Shown: positions 24,213 through 44,693 of the stretch, in pieces | Layout of the letters: the number at the start of each line of letters is the position of its first letter | Position numbering within the stretch: position 1 is the stretch's first letter | Assembly (NCBI GenBank): GCA_028282405.1 | Contig: JANQIA010000164.1 | Span: 1 to 44,693, forward strand | DNA: 44,693 nt | Origin: Rhodovibrionaceae bacterium | GTDB taxonomy: Bacteria; Pseudomonadota; Alphaproteobacteria; Kiloniellales; DSM-21159 | Direction: 5' to 3' | Notes under the pieces: generated by a model | Database searches by the model: none | What the model saw: only the letters and a program-made list of their open reading frames with translations | Told to the model about the DNA's origin: nothing | Translations under genes and position numbers: made by a program

Positions 24213-24255
24213 GGGCCGAATTTCCTGACTCTATTCTCACTTGGGGAGCTTTAAG

Positions 24256-27200
24256 ATGGCGCGCGACCTGAACGGTGCGACTCTGGGTACGGCAGACGAG
24301 ACGGGCATTCCGAGGATCGACGGAAACGATACCGCCCTGTTTCGGTTCTCGGCTTTCGCGCCCGATGAGGCGCTGCGCCTGGTGCCGGGGACAGCATCGC
24401 TCGAGCCGATCTCGACCTGGGCGCTCGGCCTGGATGCCTACATCGAGCAGCCCAGCGCTGCCTTTGTCAGCCTCCTGCAAACCGGTGACGGCGACGGCGA
24501 TCTCTTCCTGCGCGACAACGGCGATGGCACCGCCGGAATCGGGATCGATGGCGTGTACGATGGCGCCGTGTCCTTCGATGCCTGGAACCGCATCGTCGTG
24601 ACCGTGACCGAGGAAGGCGGCAACGCGGTCCTGCGCACCTACGTCAACGGCGAGCCTGTCGGAACCCAGGACCTTGGCGTCACCGACCGTTGGGACATCG
24701 ACCCGGACTTGGGCCTGAAGCTGTTCAGCGACGACAGCGGCGAGACGGCGGGCGGCGCTGTCTCCTCGGTCTTCTTCTCCACCGACGTGCCGAGTCCGGC
24801 GGAAGTCGCCGGGCTGTTGGCGACCGTTCCGACGGCGGACGCGGCAGGCTTCTTTCCCGCCCAGCCGACCCAGTCGGCGGTGGAGATCAACTTCGACAAC
24901 CAGGACGTCCAGCCCCGCTACGGCGATGCGGAGGTGGCCCTGGACGGCTTGGGCTTCCAGACCCCGGCCGCGATCGGCGACAGCGCCATCGCCTTCTCGA
25001 CCCAGTTCGGCATCGAGGGGCCCGGCGGCGCGGACATCGCGGTTCTCGACTATGCAGGCTATGCCCCGAACGAGGGTGTTCTCGTCGAGCTGCCGCTCCT
25101 CTCCTCGGATCTCTCCACCTACACCGCCGTCTGGGACATCCGCTTCGACGAGCTTCCCGGCTTCCAATCGCTGCTGCAGACCGATGTGAGCCAGGGCGGC
25201 GACGGCGAGCTTTTCATCCGCAGCGATGGCGGCATCGGCATCAACGGCGACTATGACGGGACAGTCTCGGTCGACACCTGGCACCGCATCGCCATCACGG
25301 TGGAGGACCAGAACGACGGCACCGCCATCCTGTCGAAGTACCTCGACGGTGCCTTCCTCGACAGCCAGACCGTCAGCGCCGACCGCTTCACCCTCTCGGC
25401 CGAAACGGGCTTCCTGCTGCTGAGCGACAACGATAGCGAGACCTCGACTGGCTATCTGGGGCACTTCGGGCTTTCGGAGGCGGTGCTCGACGCAGCGGAG
25501 ATCGCCGCGCTCGGCGGGGCGGACGGCGACGGGCCGTTCGAGGCGGTGGACCCTGTCGGGACGCGCAGCCTGACGCTCAACTTCGACTCGAGCTTCCGGC
25601 CCTACGACAGCCAGACCGGCTCCGTGCTCGTGTCTCTCGACGGCGGCGCGTTCACCTCGCTCTTGACCCTCGACACCTCGACGGTGCCGGGCGGGGCCAG
25701 CGCGCTGACCCGTGTCAACGAGGCCGTCTCTCTCAGCTTCGAAGTGCCGGAAGCGACCCAGACGGTCAGCTTCCAGTTCGCTTACGAGAACGCGGACAAT
25801 GACTGGTGGTGGGCGGTCGACAACCTGTCGGTCACCGAGAACGGCTCTGCCCTCTTCTCGGAGGACTTCGAAGGCCTCCCCCTCGACCCCTTCGTCTCGC
25901 CGGGCGAAGGCGGCGGTGACGGTACCGACTGGACCAATGTCGCGCCGGACGCTTGGAGCCGCGACAACACCACGACGCCGACCGGCGGCGTCGTCGAGTT
26001 CGAGGGCTGGACTTTCCTAGACAAGAACAGTTGGGTCGCGACCGCGGAAGACCAGGGGCGTGGGCAGTTCACGCTCGGCGAGGGCATCGTGGCGGTGGCC
26101 GATGGCGACGAGTACAGCGACCTCGGCGCCATCGGCGGCGATTCGATCAATGTCCTCCTGACCACGCCCGACATCGCTCTTCCCGGGAGTGACGGCGACT
26201 CCCCCGCGGCGGGGGACGAGGGGGCGCCGACCTACCAGATCGGCTTCGACAACTACGCGCCGACGGTCGAGTTCGGCTTCGGCGACGTGGCGGTGATCGA
26301 CGAGGAACCTGGCGCGCCCCTCCAGGACAACATCAACGACCTGCTGATCACCGAGGGCGAGGAGTCGCCCGAGATCGACCTCGCGGCGGTCTTCGGCGCC
26401 GGCGCAAGCAACTTCTCGGTCACCACCTCCGACGGCAGCTCGGTCGAGGCGGAAATCGACGGCACGACGTTGACGCTGAGCGGGCTGGCGCTCGGCCACT
26501 CGGACATCACGGTTACGGCCGTGGCAGAGAACGGTGGGGAGCTCGTCGAGAATTTCCGCGCCATCGTCGCCGGCGAGAACGCCTATGTCTTTGCGATCAT
26601 TCCCGACACACAGGACTACACCTCGAACCCGGGGATCGCCGAGACCTTCGGCAACATGACCGACTGGCTGGTCGAGCAGAAGGACAGTCTGGCAATCCAG
26701 CACGCGATCCACGTCGGCGACATCGTGCAGTTCGGTGCGGCCAACCAGTGGGAGATCGCCGAGGACGCCATGGAGCGGCTGGACGGCGAGATCTCCTACA
26801 CCCTCGCGGTCGGCAACCACGACCAGCAGCGCCCGGGATTCTCCTCGGCCTTCAGCTTCGAGAGCGACGTCGACACCTACTTCACGCCCGAGCAGGTGGG
26901 TGCGACGGCGGCCCAAGGCGGTGGAACCTACGACGGCTTCGACGTGGGCGAGGACACCTTCCAGAACGGCAACACCTACGCGGACTCGATCCGAAACCAC
27001 TACACCACGCTGACCACGCCGGACGGCACCGATTGGCTGATCTTCAGCCTCGAGTTCGGCATGCCGGACGACGTGCTGCGCTGGGCCTCGGAGGTGATCG
27101 AGAACCACCTGGACCACCGCGTCATCATCGACACGCACTCCTGGAATGGCGGTGACGGTCGTATCACGCCCACGACCGAGCCGCTCAACACCGACAACGG

Positions 27201-30200
27201 CGGCTGGGGTTACGCAATCCGTGACAACCCGCGGAGCGTGAATGACGGCGAGGACGCCTGGCGGGAGTTCGCCTCGAAGTATCCGAACATCACCTTCACC
27301 TTCAACGGCCACAACTTCATGGGTGGCGCCGAGACCGTGGTGAGCTACGGCGCCGGCGGCAATCCGGTCCACCAGGTCTTCGTGAATTACCAGAACGGTG
27401 CCTGGGCCGGTGTCGAGGGCGTCGGCACGAACGGTGGCAACGGCGCGATGCGCCTGATGGTGATCGACCCGGACAACGACCGCATCACCACCCATACCAA
27501 GGTGGTCGAGCTCGACAGCTACTACGACGCATTCCCGGACCACCAGGAAGTCTTCGAGGGCGTCAACCTCGGCACGCCCGAGCAGATCGCCATCGCCAAG
27601 GCCGGCGAGACCATGACGGTGACCGGCGACGGCATCTCGGCAACGGTCGAGCTCGATCCCTCGGCGACGATCGGCGATACGGCCGGGGCGACTTTCGAGT
27701 GGTTTGCGGCCGATGGCGAGAAGCTGGGCGAGACCGACGGCGGCGTGCTCTCGGTCGATCTCAAGACCGGCACCAACCGCCTGCTGCTGGAGGTCACCGA
27801 CCAGAACGGTAACGTGTCGACCGATGAGAAGGTGGTGATCGTCGAGGCGCCGGACGCGCTCTTGACCGAGACTTTCGACGACGGCGATTTGGCGGGATGG
27901 GGTTCGCCCGCGGGCGACCCCGCCAATCTCTTCGACCTCGGCACCGATCTCGGTTTCTCGCTGCCGTCGATCGGCGGCGTGGCGCAGATCCCGATCACGC
28001 TGCAGTTCGACTCTAGCTTCCGGCCCTACGGCGCCATGACCGGCGAGGTGATGGTCAGCTTCGACGGCGGCCAGAGCTTTTCGACGCTGTTGACGCTCGA
28101 CCCGAATACGGTCCCGGGCGGCTCCAGCTCGCTCGACCGCGCGAACGAGGAGGTCACCCTCGAGGTCTTGGCCCCGAGCAGCGCCAGCGACATCCAGTTC
28201 GCCTGGCGTCTCAGCCAGGCCGACAACGATTGGTGGTGGGCGATCGACAACGTCGAGGTCACCGGCCCGCTGGGCGTCGGCCAGACGCTCCTCGTCGAGA
28301 ATTTCGACGGCCTGCCGCTGCAGGACGTCGTCGACGAGCCCGCACCCGATCCGAACCGCCCGGTCTGGACCCCCACGCCGCCGGCCAACTGGACTCAGGA
28401 GGTTGCGCCTACGACTTCGCAGGGCACCACCGAGTGGCAAGGTTGGACCTTTGCCGACAAGGACTTCTGGATCTCCGTTGCGGGTAATCAGGCGCGCGAC
28501 ACTTTCGCGCTGGGCGAGAACACGCTCGCCATCGCCGATCCCGACGAGTGGGACGACAACAACGCCGGTGCGGCCGGGGACACGGACGAGTTCGACAGCA
28601 CGCTCAAGACCCCGGCGATCGACATCACCGGCATCGGCGGCGGTCAGCCGGCCGGGAGCGAGGCCGGTGTCGTCCGGGTCCCGCCGCTCTCGGGTGTCGA
28701 TGGCCTGCTGGTGACGCCGACCAGCTCCAGCGGCGAGATCGACACCTACAGCCTGATCTTCGACATCCTGCTGACGGAAACGACGCAGAGCTTCACGTCG
28801 CTCTTCCAGACCGACGTGAGCAATGGGGGCGACGCCGAGATCTACCTGCGCAACGATGGTGCCACGGCCAGCATCGGCATTTCCGGGGACTATGACGGCG
28901 CACTGACCTACGGCGAATGGGGCCGGCTCGCACTCGTTTTCGAAACTGACGAGAACGGCCAGCAGTCCCTGTCCAAGTACCTCGACGGCGTCTTCCTCGA
29001 CAGCCAGGTCGTCGACAGCGACGTCTCCGACGGCTCGCGCTGGACGATCGATGCGGACGAAGGCTTCCTGCTGTTCTCCGAACCGAACGGTTTCACTTCG
29101 GAGATCTTCACCAACGCGGTCCACTTCACGCCGGAGGCGCTGGACGCGGCGACCATCGCCGCGCTGGGCGGCGTCGACGTCGATGGGCCGGTGGATGCCG
29201 CCACCAACCCGGAGGCCTTCCAGTTCAACTTCGACAGTGCGCTCGACAGCTTGGACTACGGCACGGCAGGCCTCGCGCCGGTCAGCCTGGCCGGGCCGGA
29301 CGCCACCTCCTACCTGGTCAAGGGCTCCATCTTCGGCAATCCCAACGGCGAAGGCGAAGCGGCGCTCTATCAGCAGTCCAATGGGGCGAATGAGGTCCTG
29401 GTGTGGCTCGGCGAAGGCGCGGAAAGCTGGAGCGACTACGTCTTCGACCTGGTGGTGGAACCGGCGGATAACGATACCATCGGCGCCGTGTTCTACTACC
29501 AGGATGACGAGAACCACTATCGTCTGACCCTGAATCAGGAAGGCGATACCCGCACGCTGTCCAAGTTCGAGGAGGGTGTCGAAACGGTTCTCGCCACGGA
29601 GGCCGGGTCCTATCGTCACTTCGCGGCACAGGATCTGCGCATCGCGGTGCTGGGCAGCGAAATCGTCGTCACGCTGGACGACGAGCTGCTGTTCGACGGA
29701 CCGGTGACCGATGCAAGTCCGCTCGCCGGCGGCACCGTCGGGGTGCTGTCGCAGCTCATGGACCGCGCGATGTTTGACAACATCTCGGTCAATCCGATCG
29801 ACTTGGCCGCACGCGCACTGACCTCCGAGCCCTCCGGTCGCTGGGTCGCGGACCTGGACGGCAACGGGACGGCGACGGTGAACCTGACGGCCGCCGCCAG
29901 CCTCTCGGCCGCCGGTGTGGCCTCCTACGAGTGGCTGGTCGACGGCGAGGTCAGGGCAACCGGCGAGGCGGCGGCGCTGAACCTGGTCCCGGGCGAAACC
30001 ACGGTCACCCTGCGGGTCACCGATACCGACGGCGCGACGTCCGAGGACCGGATCACCGTCGAGGTCGCCGACAGCCGCGCCATCCTGGCGGCGGACGACT
30101 TCGAGGACGGCAATCTTGCCGGTTGGACCATCGTCGACGAGGGCACCCAGGAAGGCCCCTCGGACTGGCAGGTCGTGGACGGCGAGCTCGTGCAGGCCTC

Positions 30201-31035
30201 GGACATCCAGTCGGATCAGCAGGGCACCGGCAGTACCGCGTTCTCCGTGGAAGGCGATGGGCCCTACATCCTGCGCGACGGCACCTATGCGCTCTGGGAT
30301 GAGCCGGATGCACTGGAGTGGACCAACTACGCCCTCGAAGCGACCATCACGCCGAACGATGACGACGGCATCGGGCTGCTGTTCCGCTATACGGACCAGG
30401 ATAACTACTACAAGCTCGAGGCCGACGCACAGACCGGGCTGGTCATGCTGACCCGGCATCTCGACGGCCGAGAGACCATCCTGGCCCGAGGCTACGACGA
30501 CTATACCCCGGGCGAGAGTCAGCACTGGCGCATTGAGGTCAAGGACGGTGTGATCACGCCGTACATCGACGGCAAGAAGGTCTTCGGGACCGAGATCGAG
30601 GACCGGACCTTGGACAGTGGCACGGTGGGTCTCTACGCATGGGCCTCGGAAGACCTCGCCTTTGACGATGTGTTGGTGACCGAGCTTGGTGAAGCGTCCG
30701 GCGTCACCGAGATCGTCGGCACGGACGGCAATGACCGCCTCGTCGGCACCGACGGTGACGACATTCTCAACTCCCTTGGCGGCCGCTCCGATGTCCTGAC
30801 TGGCCTCGCCGGCTCGGACATTTTCGACTTTTCGGACACGACGAGCAACGGCGTTCGGGAGGTCCGGCGCATTACCGACTACAACGAAGAGGAAGACAGT
30901 ATCCTCCTCGGCCCGGACGTAGAGGTCGCACGTGTGCGGGAGACGGGAGTGGGAACGCTCCTGTACCTCGACGGCGACCAAGACCTCATCATCCTGGAAG
31001 GAATCAGCGGCCTCTACAGCGATGGGTTCTTCTAG
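24256..31035 (+). CDS. giant (about 2,259-aa) secreted multidomain protein: LamG/ConA-like modules, calcineurin-like metallophosphoesterase, PKD-like spacers, C-terminal RTX motif
   Basis: MPE motifs FAIIPDTQDY, HVGDIV, AVGNHDQ, DTHSW, FNGHNF. LamG-like repeats at several positions. C-terminal GTDGNDRLVGTDGDDILNSLGGRSDVLTGLAGSDIFDF. Confidence 0.9.
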   Translation: MARDLNGATLGTADETGIPRIDGNDTALFRFSAFAPDEALRLVPGTASLEPISTWALGLDAYIEQPSAAFVSLLQTGDGDGDLFLRDNGDGTAGIGIDGVYDGAVSFDAWNRIVVTVTEEGGNAVLRTYVNGEPVGTQDLGVTDRWDIDPDLGLKLFSDDSGETAGGAVSSVFFSTDVPSPAEVAGLLATVPTADAAGFFPAQPTQSAVEINFDNQDVQPRYGDAEVALDGLGFQTPAAIGDSAIAFSTQFGIEGPGGADIAVLDYAGYAPNEGVLVELPLLSSDLSTYTAVWDIRFDELPGFQSLLQTDVSQGGDGELFIRSDGGIGINGDYDGTVSVDTWHRIAITVEDQNDGTAILSKYLDGAFLDSQTVSADRFTLSAETGFLLLSDNDSETSTGYLGHFGLSEAVLDAAEIAALGGADGDGPFEAVDPVGTRSLTLNFDSSFRPYDSQTGSVLVSLDGGAFTSLLTLDTSTVPGGASALTRVNEAVSLSFEVPEATQTVSFQFAYENADNDWWWAVDNLSVTENGSALFSEDFEGLPLDPFVSPGEGGGDGTDWTNVAPDAWSRDNTTTPTGGVVEFEGWTFLDKNSWVATAEDQGRGQFTLGEGIVAVADGDEYSDLGAIGGDSINVLLTTPDIALPGSDGDSPAAGDEGAPTYQIGFDNYAPTVEFGFGDVAVIDEEPGAPLQDNINDLLITEGEESPEIDLAAVFGAGASNFSVTTSDGSSVEAEIDGTTLTLSGLALGHSDITVTAVAENGGELVENFRAIVAGENAYVFAIIPDTQDYTSNPGIAETFGNMTDWLVEQKDSLAIQHAIHVGDIVQFGAANQWEIAEDAMERLDGEISYTLAVGNHDQQRPGFSSAFSFESDVDTYFTPEQVGATAAQGGGTYDGFDVGEDTFQNGNTYADSIRNHYTTLTTPDGTDWLIFSLEFGMPDDVLRWASEVIENHLDHRVIIDTHSWNGGDGRITPTTEPLNTDNGGWGYAIRDNPRSVNDGEDAWREFASKYPNITFTFNGHNFMGGAETVVSYGAGGNPVHQVFVNYQNGAWAGVEGVGTNGGNGAMRLMVIDPDNDRITTHTKVVELDSYYDAFPDHQEVFEGVNLGTPEQIAIAKAGETMTVTGDGISATVELDPSATIGDTAGATFEWFAADGEKLGETDGGVLSVDLKTGTNRLLLEVTDQNGNVSTDEKVVIVEAPDALLTETFDDGDLAGWGSPAGDPANLFDLGTDLGFSLPSIGGVAQIPITLQFDSSFRPYGAMTGEVMVSFDGGQSFSTLLTLDPNTVPGGSSSLDRANEEVTLEVLAPSSASDIQFAWRLSQADNDWWWAIDNVEVTGPLGVGQTLLVENFDGLPLQDVVDEPAPDPNRPVWTPTPPANWTQEVAPTTSQGTTEWQGWTFADKDFWISVAGNQARDTFALGENTLAIADPDEWDDNNAGAAGDTDEFDSTLKTPAIDITGIGGGQPAGSEAGVVRVPPLSGVDGLLVTPTSSSGEIDTYSLIFDILLTETTQSFTSLFQTDVSNGGDAEIYLRNDGATASIGISGDYDGALTYGEWGRLALVFETDENGQQSLSKYLDGVFLDSQVVDSDVSDGSRWTIDADEGFLLFSEPNGFTSEIFTNAVHFTPEALDAATIAALGGVDVDGPVDAATNPEAFQFNFDSALDSLDYGTAGLAPVSLAGPDATSYLVKGSIFGNPNGEGEAALYQQSNGANEVLVWLGEGAESWSDYVFDLVVEPADNDTIGAVFYYQDDENHYRLTLNQEGDTRTLSKFEEGVETVLATEAGSYRHFAAQDLRIAVLGSEIVVTLDDELLFDGPVTDASPLAGGTVGVLSQLMDRAMFDNISVNPIDLAARALTSEPSGRWVADLDGNGTATVNLTAAASLSAAGVASYEWLVDGEVRATGEAAALNLVPGETTVTLRVTDTDGATSEDRITVEVADSRAILAADDFEDGNLAGWTIVDEGTQEGPSDWQVVDGELVQASDIQSDQQGTGSTAFSVEGDGPYILRDGTYALWDEPDALEWTNYALEATITPNDDDGIGLLFRYTDQDNYYKLEADAQTGLVMLTRHLDGRETILARGYDDYTPGESQHWRIEVKDGVITPYIDGKKVFGTEIEDRTLDSGTVGLYAWASEDLAFDDVLVTELGEASGVTEIVGTDGNDRLVGTDGDDILNSLGGRSDVLTGLAGSDIFDFSDTTSNGVREVRRITDYNEEEDSILLGPDVEVARVRETGVGTLLYLDGDQDLIILEGISGLYSDGFF
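25570..26130 (+). repeat. intragenic repeat copy 1 (FDSSFRPY...DNDWWWA.DN...GWTF.DK.. module)
   Basis: TLNFDSSFRPYDSQTGSVLVSLDGG...VPGGASALTRVNEAVSLSFEV...ADNDWWWAVDNLSVT...FEGLPLD...EGWTFLDKNSWVATA. Confidence 0.85.
27995..28560 (+). repeat. intragenic repeat copy 2 of the same module
   Basis: TLQFDSSFRPYGAMTGEVMVSFDGG...VPGGSSSLDRANEEVTLEVL...ADNDWWWAIDNVEVT...FDGLPLQ...QGWTFADKDFWISVA. Confidence 0.85.
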
Positions 31036-36642: not shown

Positions 36643-38028
36643 CTATTGCGGCCAGAGCGCGGTTTGCGGATGGAACTGAGACCAGGCAAACCAGAAAGCC
36701 TGATGACTGACGAGATCGCTGCCGTCGGAATCGACCGCTCTGACGCCACCCCCGTCGAGCGTCAGGCGTATGTTCTCATAGGCGATGTCGTGGCCGCTTC
36801 TGAGGGCCGCGACGGCCGTGCTGCGTTGAAAGGCAACCGGGTGACCGGATGCGGCGATCACGCCGATCACGTCCTCATGGACCGGCAGACGCGGGTCGAC
36901 ATTGCCGATCGGAAAGATCGGACCGTTGGCGTCACGGCCCTGGCGAAAGTTGTAGTTCCGGCCGAACGCGAGGGCTTCGACCAAGACCGTCGTCTCGGGA
37001 TGGGCTGTCTTCCAGGTGCCCCAGTCCGTCGTCACGACACTCGTCTGCTCAAGCTGCAGCTTCTTCTCCGCAAGCGGGCCCGTGACCGCCTTTCCCAGAA
37101 AGGTGTCGAACACCGAGTGGGTCACGATGTCGTACATCACTTTGTTGGACCGAATGAGCAGCCCCGAGGTGCGCAGGATCGGACGTTCGATTTCCTCCGG
37201 CAGTCGATCGGTGAAGTAAGCCTGCGCGGCACCGCAGAGCGTGCAGTAGGGAATGGCAAGATGCCGACCGCCCAAGGTGTCGTTGACCATCTCTCGCACT
37301 TCCATGATACGCCGCGGATAGGCCCGGTACGCGCCGTTCACCGCGACGCCGAAGACGATGTCGCTGTCCTTCAGCCATGTTGCCTCCGCCGCGCTGCTGA
37401 CCTCGGGATTGTCGGCGGCGGGAATGCAGTGGCAGGGCACGTCCGTCGTGTCGTAGGGGCGATCGTCTATGTTGACGCCACCCCAGGACACGAGCCGCCA
37501 GTCGATGTCGCCTTCGACGAACAAGTCGTCCCAGCCCGTTCCGAAATGGGTGAAGATGGCGCGCTTGTCCGCGAGGTAGCCGGGATAGGAGGGAACATCC
37601 CATGCAATGAGGTGGTTGGTTATCTCTTCCCAGAGATCCAGCTCTTGCAGCTCCAAACCGAGAACCTCGGCCGCCGCATCGGTCATGTCTTCGTAGCGCT
37701 CGCGGTCCCAGGCATAGCGGAGCGCATCGCTGAGGATCCAGCCGATCCGGGGATCTTGTGACGTGGCGAGCTTTTCAAGCGCTTGCCTGTGATCGGCGCC
37801 CCAGTTCGCTTGCGTCGCGCCCTCGATGACAGCCAGCCGCACGGCGGCTTGAAGCTCTGCGGATAGCGGCCCTGCCGGACTCTCCGGCGGAGTGCCGAAT
37901 TCCTCGATGACGTAGTCCGGAAGCGGCGGCTGTTCCTCAGCCGGCAGGCTGGTGCCCCAGAACAGCGACAGCAGAACCGCCAAGAGCACCAGGACAGTGC
38001 GGTGCCGTGATCCGCTTGCAAACGTCAT
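36643..38028 (-). CDS. DUF3179-family exported protein
   Basis: Signal-like MTFASGSRHRTVLVLLAVLLSLFWGTSLPAEE; VNGAYRAYPRRIMEVREMVNDTLGGRHLAIPYCTLCGAAQAYFTD. Confidence 0.75.
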   Translation of the reverse strand: MTFASGSRHRTVLVLLAVLLSLFWGTSLPAEEQPPLPDYVIEEFGTPPESPAGPLSAELQAAVRLAVIEGATQANWGADHRQALEKLATSQDPRIGWILSDALRYAWDRERYEDMTDAAAEVLGLELQELDLWEEITNHLIAWDVPSYPGYLADKRAIFTHFGTGWDDLFVEGDIDWRLVSWGGVNIDDRPYDTTDVPCHCIPAADNPEVSSAAEATWLKDSDIVFGVAVNGAYRAYPRRIMEVREMVNDTLGGRHLAIPYCTLCGAAQAYFTDRLPEEIERPILRTSGLLIRSNKVMYDIVTHSVFDTFLGKAVTGPLAEKKLQLEQTSVVTTDWGTWKTAHPETTVLVEALAFGRNYNFRQGRDANGPIFPIGNVDPRLPVHEDVIGVIAASGHPVAFQRSTAVAALRSGHDIAYENIRLTLDGGGVRAVDSDGSDLVSHQAFWFAWSQFHPQTALWPQ

Positions 38029-38191
38029 CGAATGGTCTTCCGTCTGCCAATCGCTCGCTTCGTACAGACATACTGCGCTTTTCGATGCTGGCCGCCGCAC
38101 GGCCGCGCGGCCAATCAAGCGCAATGAGAATTCGGTGAGCTGCTGTCAGACGCTATGCCGAGCCATCAAGCTGCCGGTGCGGTTCGCCGTT

Positions 38192-38848
38192 TCAGGCCTC
38201 CGCCCGGCGGGCGCTGGTGGCTTCCAGGTACTGAATGACTTCGTCGCGGGCGACGACGTCGCCGTACTTTGCGTTGATGTCGAAGAGGTTCGCTTCGTGC
38301 GGGCCCTGGTGGCGGTCGCCGACGCACTCGCGCGGGACGATAACGTGGAAGCTATGCTGCATGCCGTCGATCGCCGTCGCGCGGATGCAGCCGCTCGTCG
38401 AACAGCCCGCCAGGATGAGGGTGTCGATACGATCGGCCGAAAGCGTCGCCTGCAGCGAGGTGCCGAAGAAGGCGCTGGCGTAGTTCTTGACCACGACGAG
38501 CTCGTCCGCGGTCGGCCGGACCTGTTGATCAAACTCGCCGAGAGCGGCCCCGGGAACGAGCTTGCGAAGGGACGGCACCTTCTTGACGAACAAACCGCCG
38601 TCCTTGCCGGAGGGATGGAACGACACGCGGGTATGGATGATGGGGATCCCCACCTTGCGGGCGACGGCCAGCAGGGCGATCGACTGCCCCACCGCATCGA
38701 CCACGCCCTCGGCAAAGAAGTCCGAGCCCGGCGTCGTGTAGGCCGCCATGAAATCGATCACCAGGAGCGCCGGACGCGTGCCGAAGCCGACCCGGCCGTC
38801 GAAGACGCCCGCGTAGTTCTCCGCGGCGCTCGATTCGCTAGCTGCCAT
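38192..38848 (-). CDS. isochorismatase-like cysteine hydrolase
   Basis: ALLVIDFMAAY (Asp), VVVKNYASAFFGTSL (Lys), LILAGCSTSGCIRATAIDGMQHSFHVIVPRECVGDR (Cys). Confidence 0.92.
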   Translation of the reverse strand: MAASESSAAENYAGVFDGRVGFGTRPALLVIDFMAAYTTPGSDFFAEGVVDAVGQSIALLAVARKVGIPIIHTRVSFHPSGKDGGLFVKKVPSLRKLVPGAALGEFDQQVRPTADELVVVKNYASAFFGTSLQATLSADRIDTLILAGCSTSGCIRATAIDGMQHSFHVIVPRECVGDRHQGPHEANLFDINAKYGDVVARDEVIQYLEATSARRAEA

Positions 38849-39747: not shown

Positions 39748-40398
39748 CTAGCTTTGTGGGCCGAGGGCTTCGGCGGTCCCGATCATGCTGTCGCGCGTCA
39801 CCAGCTCGGCGAGCGCGGACTCATCGAGCCCGTCCGTGCCCGGCGGGCGGCGGGGTATCACGAGAAAGCGGAGGTCGGCGGTGCTGTCGAGCACACGGAC
39901 CTTAGCCCTGTCCGGCAGCTCGAGGCCGAATTCCTGCAGCACACCGCGCGGGTCCTTGACCACGCGCGAGCGATAGGCCGTGCTTTTGTACCAGGCCGGC
40001 GGCACGCCCAGGATCATCCGCGGGTAGCAGGAGCAGAGCGTGCAGACCACGACGTGGTGCAGGTCGTCGGTGTTCTCGACCACCTGCAGTTCGGCGATGG
40101 CGCCCACATCGATCCCCATCTCGCCCAGGGTCGCGCGGGGGTCGTCGATCAGGTTCGCCTTGAACCCAGGATCGCTCCAGGCCTTGGCGACCAGATCCGC
40201 GCCGAGCGCCGGGTTCCGCGACTCCGTCGCATCGATCTGGGCGTGGAGGTCGGCGGCGGTGAAGAGGCCTTTCTCGATCAGGAGCTCCCGGATCGCCGTT
40301 TCCAGCAGCTCGAATCGAGAGATCGGGCCATCCTGATCGCTGATCGGCGCATGGTCGTGGTCGTGATGATGGTGATGATCGTGATCGTGGGTGCTCAT
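39748..40398 (-). CDS. nitrile hydratase alpha / thiocyanate hydrolase gamma homologue, Co-type
   Basis: His-rich N-terminus MSTHDHDHHHHHDHDH; metal motif VCTLCSCYPRMILGVPPAWYKSTAYRSRVV; VIPRRPPGTDGLDESALAELVTRDSMIG. Confidence 0.92.
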   Translation of the reverse strand: MSTHDHDHHHHHDHDHAPISDQDGPISRFELLETAIRELLIEKGLFTAADLHAQIDATESRNPALGADLVAKAWSDPGFKANLIDDPRATLGEMGIDVGAIAELQVVENTDDLHHVVVCTLCSCYPRMILGVPPAWYKSTAYRSRVVKDPRGVLQEFGLELPDRAKVRVLDSTADLRFLVIPRRPPGTDGLDESALAELVTRDSMIGTAEALGPQS

Positions 40399-40724
40399 GC
40401 GCCCTGGTCCCTCTGTCGTTCCTGGTCCGGCTCCAGCCAGTGCTCGAAGATGTCGGCCTCGATCTCGTCATCCGCCGGACCGCCATAGCCGGGCCAGAGA
40501 TCGCGCTGAGAAAAGCGGATGCGATAGAGCGTCTGCAGCGGCATGCCGGGCTTGTGGTAGGCGAGACGCTCCGGGTCTCGGAAGCGGCCGGCGACGCTGA
40601 CAATGGTGCCGGTTCTCCCACGCAGATAGACCGGCGTACGGCAATGCCCCAGGGACGCACGGTCGCTGACCCGGACTGTGCTCCCCGGCGCAAAGCGCGT
40701 GTCGTTAGCGGCGGTGCCGGTCAT
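40395..40724 (-). CDS. nitrile hydratase beta C-terminal half (SH3-like) as a separate ORF
   Basis: FAPGSTVRVSDRASLGHCRTPVYLRGRTGTIVSVAGRFRDPERLAYHKPGMPLQTLYRIRFSQRDLWPGY...ADIFEHWLE. Confidence 0.88.
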   Translation of the reverse strand: MTGTAANDTRFAPGSTVRVSDRASLGHCRTPVYLRGRTGTIVSVAGRFRDPERLAYHKPGMPLQTLYRIRFSQRDLWPGYGGPADDEIEADIFEHWLEPDQERQRDQGA

Positions 40725-41101
40725 ACCGGGCTCCGATCCACCTCGATGCCCTCCGCGGCATAGCGGTCGGCAATGGCCTTGATGCGCTCCTCGAGTTCTT
40801 CGGCGCCGATCACCTCCTGCTCCAGGAGCAGTTCGCGGATCGCCTTGATCCAGCGGTCGTAATAGGCGGTGCCGTCGTATTCCTGGGCACTGTATTCCTC
40901 GACCGCACGGCGCAGGGCGTCGACCCGAAAGATCTGATGCCGCGCCAACAACATGAGGATCGCGTCGACCCGCTTCTCGTAGTAGCTCAGGTCATGCTCG
41001 CTGCGGTCGATGGGCCCGAAATCGAGGCCGCCGACATCCTGCACCGTGCGTCCGCCGGCGCTGTCGCGCAGGCTGTTCTTGCGTTCTAGAGCCATATCCA
41101 A
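40721..41101 (-). CDS. nitrile hydratase beta N-terminal half as a separate ORF
   Basis: VQDVGGLDFGPIDRSEHDLSYYEKRVDAI...FRVDALRRAVEEYSAQEYDGTAYYDRWIKAIRELLLEQEVIGAEELEERI. Confidence 0.85.
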   Translation of the reverse strand: MDMALERKNSLRDSAGGRTVQDVGGLDFGPIDRSEHDLSYYEKRVDAILMLLARHQIFRVDALRRAVEEYSAQEYDGTAYYDRWIKAIRELLLEQEVIGAEELEERIKAIADRYAAEGIEVDRSPV

Positions 41102-41122
41102 ATCACCTCGCGAAGACTGTGA

Positions 41123-42199
41123 TCACCGTCCAAATACCAAAATCGCATCGGGCTCGACCGTCAGAAACACGCTCTGTCCAATGACGAAGGTGTCCTGGGC
41201 GGCAATGCCCCGGATGCGTCGCTGAGCCAACAGCCGCAAACCCTGCTCGGTCTCGACATAGAGCTCTACATGGGGGCCCTTGTAGACGACTTCCGAGATC
41301 GTGGCGGCGATGCTGTTCTCCCTGCCCACGGGGCTCTCGGTTTCGACCAGGAACTGCTCGGGCCGGATGCCGAGCTGAACGTCGCGGCCGCTCTCCAGCG
41401 CGTCGCTGACCTTGAGGGTGTGGCTGTCGCGGATCTTGATATGAGAGCCGTCCTGTTCTGCCGAAACGGCCGTGCCGTCGAGAATGTTGGAGGCGCCGAG
41501 AAACTCCATCACGGCGCGCGAACCGGGCTCGCGATAGAGCGTGGTCGGTGTGCCGACCTCCTGGATCTGGCCATCGAACATCACCGCAACCCGGTCGGAG
41601 AGCGACAGGGCCTCTTCCTGATCGTGGGTGACGATGATGGTGGTGATGCCGGAATCCCGCTGGATGCGTTTGAGCTCGACCTGCATCTGGTCGCGTAGCT
41701 TGCGGTCGAGCGCGCCCAGCGGCTCGTCGAGCAGGAGCACGTTGGGCCGGATGACCAGCGCCCGGGCCAGGGAAACGCGTTGCTGCTGACCGCCCGACAT
41801 CTGGCGCGGCAGGCGATCCGCGAGCGTGTCCAACTGAACCAGCTCCAGGGCCTCGGCGACGCGCTGTTTGCATTCCGCCGCGGGAACGCTGCGCCGCTTG
41901 AGGCCGTAAGCGACGTTCTCGGCCACGGTCATATGGGGAAACAGCGCATAGTCCTGAAACACCAGCCCCACGTTGCGCTTGTGCGCCGGAACGCCGACGA
42001 CCGGCTGGCCGTTGAAGCTGATGGAGCCCGATGTGGGCTGCACGAAACCGGCGATGCAGCGCAGGGTCGTCGTCTTACCGCAGCCTGAGGGACCGAGCAG
42101 CGCCAGGCAGGTGCCCTCCTCCACCGTCAGGTTCACCGAGCGCAGGATGTCCAGCGCGCCGACGGAGAAGCAGAGATCCGAGAGGTCAAGTCGCGCCAT
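41123..42199 (-). CDS. ABC transporter ATP-binding protein (PotA/FbpC-like)
   Basis: GPSGCGKTTTLRCIAGF, MSGGQQQRVSLARALV, LLLDEPLGALDRK, VTHDQEEAL. Confidence 0.94.
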   Translation of the reverse strand: MARLDLSDLCFSVGALDILRSVNLTVEEGTCLALLGPSGCGKTTTLRCIAGFVQPTSGSISFNGQPVVGVPAHKRNVGLVFQDYALFPHMTVAENVAYGLKRRSVPAAECKQRVAEALELVQLDTLADRLPRQMSGGQQQRVSLARALVIRPNVLLLDEPLGALDRKLRDQMQVELKRIQRDSGITTIIVTHDQEEALSLSDRVAVMFDGQIQEVGTPTTLYREPGSRAVMEFLGASNILDGTAVSAEQDGSHIKIRDSHTLKVSDALESGRDVQLGIRPEQFLVETESPVGRENSIAATISEVVYKGPHVELYVETEQGLRLLAQRRIRGIAAQDTFVIGQSVFLTVEPDAILVFGR

Positions 42200-42202
42200 G
42201 CG

Positions 42203-43003
42203 TCACCGTCCAACCGAAAGCGAGATGACCTGGTAGCGTTTCTCGACGAACATGATGACCAGGCTGATGATCAGAATGTAGAGCGTCGAAAAGGCCGCCG
42301 GGGTCGGGTCGAAGTTCTGGGAGATGTAGTTGAACAGCTCGATGGGCATGGTGGTCAGGCCGCCGCGCACCAGGAAGATGCTGATCGGGTAGTTGTCGAA
42401 GCTGATCAGGAAGGCGAAGAGGAAGCCGCTGATGATGCCGGGTTTGAGCTGCGGCAGGGTCACGGTCCAAAACACCACCCAGCGATTGGCGCCAAGCGAC
42501 GAGGCGGCCTCCTCGATGTTGGGATTGTAGAGCGTCATCGAGGCGACGATGGTGCGCACCGGATAGGCGGCCACCAGCACCATGTGGCCGATGACGAGGC
42601 TGTACCAGGTGAAGGCGATGTCGAGCCGGATGAAGAACTGCACCAGCGCGATGCCGATGGCGACGATCGGCACGGCGACGGGCGACAGGAGAAAAGAGGT
42701 CAAGGCGGCCTTGCCGGCGAAGTCGTAGCGCACGATCGCCATCGCCGTGCCCAGCGCCATGACGGTCACCAGCGTCGCCGCAATGGTCGCGATCAACAGG
42801 CTGATCAGCGTCGCCTCGCCGATCTTGTTGATGTTGGCGATGTTCCGGTACCACTCCAAGGAATAGGACGAGGGCGGGAACTCGATGAAGAACGAGCCGT
42901 TGAACGACACCAAGAGGGTGACGATCACCGGAAAGACCAGAAAGGCCATCGCCGCCCAGCCGAGGACGTTCACCACCAGGCGGAAGTCGCGTTCTTCAGA
43001 CAT
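42203..43003 (-). CDS. ABC transporter permease (PotC-like)
   Basis: EEAASSLGANRWVVFWTVTLPQLKPGIISGFLFAFLISFDNYPISIFL. Confidence 0.92.
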   Translation of the reverse strand: MSEERDFRLVVNVLGWAAMAFLVFPVIVTLLVSFNGSFFIEFPPSSYSLEWYRNIANINKIGEATLISLLIATIAATLVTVMALGTAMAIVRYDFAGKAALTSFLLSPVAVPIVAIGIALVQFFIRLDIAFTWYSLVIGHMVLVAAYPVRTIVASMTLYNPNIEEAASSLGANRWVVFWTVTLPQLKPGIISGFLFAFLISFDNYPISIFLVRGGLTTMPIELFNYISQNFDPTPAAFSTLYILIISLVIMFVEKRYQVISLSVGR

Positions 43004-43883
43004 CGACCCGCAACATTCTGCGCACGAGGACCGCGTAGACGAACACCAGCGCGAAGGTGAAGGCGGTCAGGATGAAGATGATGGCCGAGCCGAGCGGGAA
43101 GTTGAGCTGCACCAGCAACTGCTCGGCGGCGACCTGAGAGATCATCGCCGTCGAGGGTGAGCCCAGCATTAGCGGGGTGACGAATGCGCTGGCGCAGATG
43201 GCGAAGCACAGGGTGGTGCCGCCAAAAATGCCGGGTGCGGAAAGCGGCAGGATGACCGTGCGCAGGGTCGTCCAGGAATTGGCGCCCAGGGTGCGCGGCG
43301 CCTCCCACTGCGAGGGCGGAATGCGAATCAGCGCGCCATAGATCGGCAGGATCATGAAGGGCATGCAATAGTGCACCAGCGCGACGATGATCGCGCCTTC
43401 ATTGTAGACCAGCCGCTGGGACCGCTCGAAGATCCCGAGCCCGACGAACAGGTTGTTGATCGGCCCCTGGTCGGCCAGCACGACCAGCCAGCCGTAGTTG
43501 CGCACGATCAGACTCGCCGCCAGCGAGATGAAGACCACCATCAGCACGGCTGAGCGGATGCGCGGGCCGAGCCACAGCATCATCACAGCGACCGGGTAGC
43601 ACAGCAGAAAGGTGATCAAGACCGAGATGAAGGAGAGCTCGAACGTGCGCCAGAGGGCGCGCATGGTGCGCGCGCTCTCGAAGGCCTTCTCGTACTGATA
43701 GAGCCAGGTGCCGGTGGCCTTCACCTCTTCCGGATCGTTGACCCAGAAGCCGAAGCTGACCCGCAGCATCTCGGCGAAGGGAATGACGTAGAACGCCAAG
43801 AGAAAGACCAGCATGGGCGCGAGCAGAAGCGCTGCGGGCCCATGCCGGAGTATGTTGTCGAGTGGTGCCTGCCGGACAGCCAT
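42996..43883 (-). CDS. ABC transporter permease (PotB-like)
   Basis: APRTLGANSWTTLRTVILPLSAPGIFGGTTLCFAICASAFVTPLMLG. Confidence 0.92.
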   Translation of the reverse strand: MAVRQAPLDNILRHGPAALLLAPMLVFLLAFYVIPFAEMLRVSFGFWVNDPEEVKATGTWLYQYEKAFESARTMRALWRTFELSFISVLITFLLCYPVAVMMLWLGPRIRSAVLMVVFISLAASLIVRNYGWLVVLADQGPINNLFVGLGIFERSQRLVYNEGAIIVALVHYCMPFMILPIYGALIRIPPSQWEAPRTLGANSWTTLRTVILPLSAPGIFGGTTLCFAICASAFVTPLMLGSPSTAMISQVAAEQLLVQLNFPLGSAIIFILTAFTFALVFVYAVLVRRMLRVDV

Positions 43884-43904: not shown

Positions 43905-44693
43905 TCAGCCGAAGATCTCGTTCCACTTCTCGGTCATCTGGGGCCGGTTTTTCGACAGGTAGCCCCAGTCGGCATAGGTGATGTTGTCCGGCGGGCCCAT
44001 CAGATCGAGCGTCCGTGCGGAGGCGTCGACCTCCTTGTGCGCGCTCCGGGTGCGCAGCACGCTGTCGATCTTCTCCTGGAAGGCCTTGTCATAGCTCATG
44101 TTGACGTAGACCTCGGCCAGCTCGGCATTCTTGGCGTTGACCGGCATGTTCAGGCCGACGATTTCGCCGTGCATGCCCTCGGCCAGCGGATGTGCCGGCG
44201 CGATCGGCGCGCCCTTGTCGATCAGCGGGTTGATGAAGATGCCGTAGAAGGGAACGATCGGAACCTGGCCGCTTTGCAGCATCTGAATGGCCTGCGGCGC
44301 ACCGGTATAGACCGTGACCCCGTTCTCCTTCAGCTTGGCCAGGTGCGCGAGGCCGGCCTCCCACTCGTATTGGGCTTCGGACAGCGGCTTGCCGGTCGCG
44401 ACCTGCGCGGCGCTGGTGACGATGCGCACGCCGCTGTTCCAACCGACCGGCGCGATGGCGATCCTGTCGGCGTTCTTGGAGTCCCAGAGATCGGCCCAGG
44501 CTGCTGGCTTATCGACACCTGAGTCGGTGTTGTAGAACAGCGTGTGCGTGGCATCGATCACGCCGGCGGAGAAGTTGTCCGCCAGCAGGAAGGCCTCGCG
44601 GACGTTCGCCATGTTGGGGATGTTCTTAGGCTCATGCGCGCGGAGCAGCCCGTCGTCGCGGGCGATGAAGACACCGGCTTCGGAAAACTGCAT
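43905..44693 (-). CDS. ABC transporter substrate-binding protein (spermidine/putrescine-type), truncated at the window edge
   Basis: LFYNTDSGVDKPAAWADLWDSKNADRIAIAPVGWNSGVRIVTSAAQ...GQVPIVPFYGIFINPLIDKGAPIAPAHPLAEG. The ORF is still open at the right edge. Confidence 0.85.
   Translation of the reverse strand: MQFSEAGVFIARDDGLLRAHEPKNIPNMANVREAFLLADNFSAGVIDATHTLFYNTDSGVDKPAAWADLWDSKNADRIAIAPVGWNSGVRIVTSAAQVATGKPLSEAQYEWEAGLAHLAKLKENGVTVYTGAPQAIQMLQSGQVPIVPFYGIFINPLIDKGAPIAPAHPLAEGMHGEIVGLNMPVNAKNAELAEVYVNMSYDKAFQEKIDSVLRTRSAHKEVDASARTLDLMGPPDNITYADWGYLSKNRPQMTEKWNEIFG

Follow-up and report, generated by a model that had tools for sequence, protein, structure and literature searches.

Operon structure and gene content

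The window, by which we mean the whole 44,693 nucleotide stretch analysed here (contig JANQIA010000164.1 of the Rhodovibrionaceae bacterium assembly GCA_028282405.1), encodes near its end a nitrile hydratase (NHase) in three consecutive open reading frames (ORFs). The two domains of the NHase beta subunit, here called betaN and betaC, are made separately and precede the catalytic alpha subunit. These genes belong to a minus-strand operon in which a substrate-binding protein, two permeases, an ATPase, betaN, betaC, alpha, a lyase-like and an amidohydrolase-like enzyme follow one another:

43905-44693 (-): ABC substrate-binding protein, continuing past the end of the window
42996-43883 and 42203-43003 (-): two PotB/PotC-type ABC permeases
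41123-42199 (-): PotA-type ABC importer ATPase, upstream of betaN in the same operon (TIGR01187, 376 bits, above cut-off)
40721-41095 (-): betaN subunit, AnhD/ScnB-type, with the NHase beta N-terminal domain (PF21006); 124 aa from ATG
40721-40724 (-): 4-nt ATGA overlap of betaN and betaC
40395-40724 (-): betaC subunit, AnhE/ScnA-type, with the SH3-like NHase beta C-terminal domain (PF02211); 109 aa
40395-40398 (-): 4-nt overlap of betaC and alpha
39748-40398 (-): alpha subunit, catalytic and Co-type (PF02979); 216 aa
38838-39713 (-): C-C lyase resembling methylisocitrate lyase and petal-death protein, with a KRCGH motif, downstream of alpha
38192-38848 (-): isochorismatase-family cysteine amidohydrolase (PF00857)

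All three subunits score above the Pfam gathering score: betaN as NHase_beta_N (E 3.9e-17, 62.8 bits), betaC as NHase_beta_C (E 1.6e-22) and alpha as NHase_alpha (E 3.9e-77). Among solved structures in the PDB, betaN aligns to residues 4-92 of the Pseudomonas putida NHase beta chain and to residues 44-144 of ScnB, betaC aligns to residues 129-218 of the same beta chain (E 2e-13) and to ScnA (E 6e-11), and alpha aligns to both NHase alpha and ScnC. An earlier note on this DNA had proposed that an NHase beta subunit is made here as two ORFs, one for each domain, with which the Pfam and PDB alignments agree; since they cover beta residues 4-92 and 129-218, the gene break corresponds to the inter-domain linker. 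The three ORFs and both overlaps lie where that note had placed them, and the scnB-scnA-scnC-like gene order that it described is common to thiocyanate hydrolase (SCNase) and other three-subunit NHases. Its 126-aa betaN ORF was right in position and domain, but the start needs revision: a Shine-Dalgarno sequence, AGGTGA at 41103-41108, stands 7 nt from an ATG at 41095 and about 1 nt from the TTG at 41101, and because of this spacing the ATG, giving 124 aa, is the more likely start. The ATGA overlap suggests that betaN and betaC are translationally coupled.

The full operon order is kept in L125, an independent metagenome-assembled genome (MAG; 'Rhodovibrionaceae bacterium PL25b_bin.61'), and in Ferrovibrio (L128), while the importer and NHase part is also found in L063 and L036; the ATPase and both permeases are conserved in all four. 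The substrate-binding protein is 96% identical in L125. The lyase-like enzyme (93% in L125, 66% in L128) and the amidohydrolase (91% and 56%) are not conserved beyond the closest relatives, so that any pathway of which they form part would be specific to the sub-clade of the window. The closest solved relative of the amidohydrolase is N-carbamoylsarcosine amidohydrolase (PDB 26st, E 1e-51). The same strand encodes, downstream of the operon (36643-38124), a DUF3179 protein with a signal-peptide-like start, kept in L125 (83%) and absent from L128. Elsewhere in the window, the Pfam matches of an ORF of about 2268 aa (24229-31032) are all weak and lie towards the C-terminus (3keto-disac_hyd, BiPBP_C).

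The split beta subunit and its lineage

The earlier note had named beforehand a sequencing frameshift in beta as one finding that would tell against it, and this is ruled out. L125 has the identical split in three overlapping ORFs, its alpha being 94% identical to that of the window, and the differences between the two loci are mostly synonymous (NG86 dN/dS approximately 0.06 for betaN, 0.21 for betaC and 0.12 for alpha); purifying selection acts on all three ORFs. The idea that an ordinary two-subunit NHase has had its beta gene broken by sequencing error or recent mutation draws on the different frames of betaN and betaC and on beta being normally a single chain, but it deserves practically no credence and is ruled out as a frameshift or pseudogene by the recurrence of the split in L125, by this selection, by some 140 betaN-betaC-alpha loci from several phyla, which have start codons and 4-nt overlaps, and by the grouping of the window alpha with split-type alphas.

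Of 289 genomes scanned within the class, 103 contain relatives of alpha. Among the classified loci that we fetched, 140 have the betaN-betaC-alpha arrangement and 62 an alpha with fused beta; the 140 include repeats of one locus, and 133 different alphas from them enter the tree. The 4-nt overlap of betaN with betaC recurs in 66 of 139 betaN-betaC-alpha loci and that of betaC with alpha in 47 of 139. These loci are mostly alphaproteobacterial, but occur also on one plasmid each of Streptomyces and Planktothrix (cyanobacteria), as well as in various MAGs that include Chloroflexota and Rokubacteria. Enzymes of this kind have been described before and form a large, little studied group, in which a single locus such as that of the window is unsurprising.

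In a tree of 86 alphas, a single branch (bootstrap 100, SH-aLRT 99) divides split from fused NHases, with the gamma subunit of thiocyanate hydrolase on the split side; the tree is unrooted and implies no order of the two states. Every split-type alpha but one falls on the split side, the exception being L211, a betaN-betaC-alpha locus that falls next to a fused relative (L217) and was handled as a separate case. The fused side also holds a few beta splits of the form alpha-betaN-betaC-activator. A FastTree of all sequences placed 146 of 147 split and 67 of 68 fused alphas on the expected sides, the one fused exception being an SCNase locus of Azospirillum (L221). A phylogeny had been among the checks proposed in the earlier note, for which a position inside the ordinary fused NHases would have been the second finding to tell against it; the alpha tree places the window within the split lineage, outside the ordinary fused NHases; its sister is L125, and both belong to a separate clade of four rows (95/90).

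The same genome carries an ordinary Co-type NHase on contig C284 (L001), arranged alpha-beta-activator and adjoining a solute-binding-protein gene, and the two NHase types thus coexist. That enzyme shares homologous domains and the catalytic motif with the window's, but differs in its fused beta, its gene order, its place on the other side of the 100/99 branch and the Trp that it carries at the position of alpha R127, described below.

Other arrangements were encountered among the relatives. Loci in the order betaC-alpha-betaN (L222, L223, L224, L131, L174 and L175) form one clade in the alpha tree, and their plasmid copies in Rhizobium and Agrobacterium adjoin CbtA/CbtB cobalt transporter genes and mostly an aquaporin gene too. 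At six loci (L042:2071-3156, L047:3813-5051, L048:5944-6999, L049:7452-8513, L066:3762-4883 and L193:4590-5621) a single ORF joins betaN to alpha by way of a His-rich linker, and betaC is missing from the surroundings; G025, G157 and G255, three genomes from the same genus, have only one betaC (PF02211) apiece, in no case beside a betaN-alpha fusion. An NHase-like protein that dispenses with the SH3-like beta domain would, if true, be an unusual variant.

Active-site residues and thiocyanate hydrolase

The residues that bear on metal binding and on the substrate pocket were located as follows:

40027-40044 (-): metal-binding motif C119-T-L-C122-S-C124 of alpha, the Co-type signature
40018-40020 (-): alpha R127, at the position of ScnC gamma-R136 and of Pseudonocardia alpha-W117
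40910-40912 (-): betaN R64 (numbered from the TTG), at the position of Pseudonocardia betaR52 and ScnB R91, a predicted contact of the modified cysteines
40898-40900 (-): betaN E68, equivalent of P. putida betaE56
40638-40646 (-): betaC H27-C-R29, equivalents of P. putida betaH147 (H27) and Pseudonocardia betaR157 (R29)
40351-40392 (-): His/Asp-rich N-terminus of alpha, HDHDHHHHHDHDH

The features expected of a Co-type NHase are present, namely an NHase_alpha domain with CTLCSC and beta N- and C-terminal domains bearing both cysteine-contacting arginines. Residues C119, L121, C122, S123 and C124 are invariant in 23 split alphas. Arginine stands at the betaN R64 position in 145 of 147 split and 70 of 70 fused proteins and at betaC R29, the counterpart of ScnA R55, in every protein compared, which bears out the earlier suggestion that both arginines are retained across the split. 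The E68 position is Glu in 144 of 147 split and all 70 fused proteins (N or A in the two SCNases examined), while the betaC H27 position is His in 143 of 143 split proteins and Tyr in SCNases. At the position of alpha R127 the two sides of the tree mostly differ: 137 of 148 alphas on the split side have Arg there, and 60 of the 68 motif-bearing alphas on the fused side have Trp; the corresponding R136W difference is visible between PDB 2DD4 and 3VYG. The His/Asp-rich N-terminus recurs in other split alphas, in ScnC and in the fused-type alpha of the same genome, and is possibly a metal-acquisition tail. With TIGR01323, the equivalog profile of NHase alpha, the window alpha scores 240 bits, below the cut-off of 249.85; other split alphas score 232-257, so that this cut-off runs through the split lineage.

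Several of these features are shared with the thiocyanate hydrolase of Thiobacillus thioparus, ScnB-ScnA-ScnC (PDB 2DD4/2DD5), and would be expected if the window encoded that enzyme or a close functional equivalent. The gene order and the split are identical, both enzymes have three subunits, the CTLCSC motif, the two cysteine-contacting arginines and a His-rich alpha N-terminus, alpha is 48% identical to ScnC and has the Arg of gamma-R136, betaN R65 matches ScnB R92, and the alpha-type chains of SCNases lie on the split side of the tree. There they form a long branch, and although the best tree does not join them to the window, a joint clade is compatible with the data (AU test, p 0.345).

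We nevertheless regard this identification as very improbable, and reject thiocyanate hydrolase itself on sequence criteria, namely the profile cut-off and the residues. With TIGR03887 the window alpha reaches 200 bits against a cut-off of 291.45 (the Azospirillum SCNase gamma reaches 357), and searches of 399 and 343 genomes gave no match to this profile over cut-off; the SCNase references were accordingly a plasmid record (L221) and PDB entries. ScnB R90 and ScnC gamma-R136 are reportedly the pocket arginines that set thiocyanate selectivity; the window has Leu at the R90 position, where Arg is specific to thiocyanate hydrolases. It also retains the NHase Glu (ScnB N95) and His (ScnA Y53) that both SCNases have lost, its alpha has neither the insertion of about 11 residues nor the C-terminal extension of ScnC, and there are no sulfur-oxidation genes among the annotated neighbouring genes.

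At the Azospirillum ramasamyi plasmid locus (L221:5054-6696) the annotated SCNase gamma adjoins a fused betaN-betaC ORF, so that the beta part of SCNase is not always split. A published SCNase tree was built from homologues at least 50% identical to ScnC (PMC10098168), and since split alphas come close to that threshold, as the window alpha does, it may contain three-subunit NHases.

Cobalt loading, substrate and wider meaning

The window is best read as encoding a three-subunit Co-type NHase, a betaN-betaC-alpha complex in which betaN is probably the cobalt chaperone and which would hydrate nitriles or N-cyano compounds supplied by the importer, with processing of the product downstream; we hold this reading with high confidence. 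The operon would yield betaN, betaC and alpha by translation in that order, and these would assemble as (betaN betaC alpha)n, betaN and betaC each supplying one arginine to the oxidised cysteines of the CTLCSC cobalt site of alpha. Free betaN, to which the NHase activator (a protein encoded on its own) is homologous, would probably double as cobalt metallochaperone and subunit-swapping partner, and for this reason no activator gene would be needed.

The distribution of activator genes is consistent with such a role. None lies in the betaN-betaC-alpha operon of the window, and an activator was found beside none of 145 non-redundant split-type alphas and beside 53 fused-type alphas. None of the 22 genomes with split NHase only matched TIGR03889 over cut-off, against five of five with a fused NHase, including that of the window, whose one activator is encoded on C284 with the fused enzyme; the association (Fisher p 1.2e-5) disregards shared ancestry and reflects essentially one transition (3 parsimony changes). 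About a dozen of the 66 fused loci also have no activator nearby. The recent splits on the fused side, L104 and that of Aminobacter MSH1 (L227), retain an activator, and splitting of beta alone therefore does not abolish the need for one. Both have the order alpha-betaN-betaC-activator and split independently; L227 (4986-6662) is on plasmid pUSP2 of MSH1, a dichlobenil-soil strain, and adjoins CbtAB cobalt transporter genes and an amidase gene. That betaN is itself a misnamed activator is ruled out, as it scores 62.8 bits with PF21006 against 21 bits with TIGR03889 (cut-off 46), and true activators form a profile of their own, separate from betaN.

The characterised system closest in architecture is AnhD-AnhE-AnhA of Streptomyces canus, which matures without an activator and whose genome encodes none; the role of metallochaperone falls to AnhD, which is homologous to betaN, and AnhD2A loads cobalt and swaps alpha, whereas AnhE does not (PMC7329996). 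The window resembles this system in the betaN-betaC-alpha order, the domain split, the lack of an adjoining activator gene, the Co-type motif and the retained second-shell Glu and His. A locus with this architecture on a Streptomyces plasmid (NBC_01176, and not from S. canus) is 39, 52 and 48% identical to the window in betaN, betaC and alpha; it adjoins an aquaporin and a Ni/Co transporter, in contrast to the ABC importer, lyase and amidohydrolase of the window. S. canus also differs in belonging to another phylum and in having a genome free of activators, where that of the window has a fused NHase with its activator. Toyocamycin NHase, ToyJKL of Streptomyces rimosus, is likewise a three-subunit NHase (PMC7329996, citing Nelp et al. 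2014), likened to the window here by its reported architecture alone.

As AnhD and the activator are both homologues of betaN, an AnhD-like mechanism is the likeliest for the window, and activator-free maturation with betaN as chaperone is accordingly likely on comparative grounds. The C284 activator, which exceeds the TIGR03889 cut-off and belongs to a complete alpha-beta-activator NHase, might conceivably act in trans, in which case the three-subunit enzyme would be real but its cobalt would be loaded by that protein and not by betaN. We consider this improbable, given the 22 split-only genomes that lack an activator over cut-off and the maturation of AnhDEA without one (PMC7329996). At a related locus (L038:10528-10899) a second, stand-alone betaN-like ORF of 124 aa stands upstream of the betaN-betaC-alpha operon, possibly as a dedicated chaperone copy.

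For the three-subunit NHase of the window, the natural reading of the operon is a catabolic route of import, hydration, hydrolysis and cleavage. The PotABCD-type importer would bring in a nitrile or N-cyano compound, the enzyme would hydrate it, the amide or carbamoyl product would then probably be hydrolysed by the N-carbamoylsarcosine-amidohydrolase-like enzyme, and the carbon skeleton would be cleaved by the methylisocitrate-lyase-like enzyme.

The identity of the amidohydrolase makes an N-cyano or cyanamide-like substrate attractive. A stricter proposal holds that the natural substrate is not a simple alkyl nitrile but an anionic one or an N-cyano compound (cyanamide or cyanoimine), and that the carbamoyl group is removed by the neighbouring enzyme. 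Beyond the similarity of that enzyme to N-carbamoylsarcosine amidohydrolase, the Arg in place of Trp in the alpha pocket points in this direction, as does the use of S. canus AnhDEA on acetamiprid and thiacloprid, both of which are cyanoimines. However, isochorismatase-family amidohydrolases take many amides, and this one is not conserved beyond the nearest relatives; we treat the stricter proposal as tentative and somewhat unlikely.

What is most interesting here is the loss of the activator across a lineage, together with an alpha Arg common to thiocyanate hydrolase that is Trp in fused NHases. On a broader reading, the case for which seems to us nearly but not quite balanced, split and fused NHases would be two deep sister lineages, the whole split lineage, which is very common in Alphaproteobacteria and further phyla, being activator-independent through betaN and SCNase its specialised branch, and the Arg-for-Trp exchange in the pocket would imply different substrates, such as anionic or N-cyano compounds. 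Classical cobalt NHases are valuable catalysts that require a co-expressed activator. A lineage that is free of activators, if true, would offer simpler expression and a route to testing the activator, as a betaN homologue, against the beta subunit. The Arg/Trp switch in alpha and the loss of Glu and His in thiocyanate hydrolases only are residues with which the divergence of NHase and SCNase could be tested. Public annotation scatters the split enzymes under names such as 'SH3-like domain-containing protein' and 'nitrile hydratase subunit alpha', and by criteria of sequence identity some are possibly also filed as 'thiocyanate hydrolase'.
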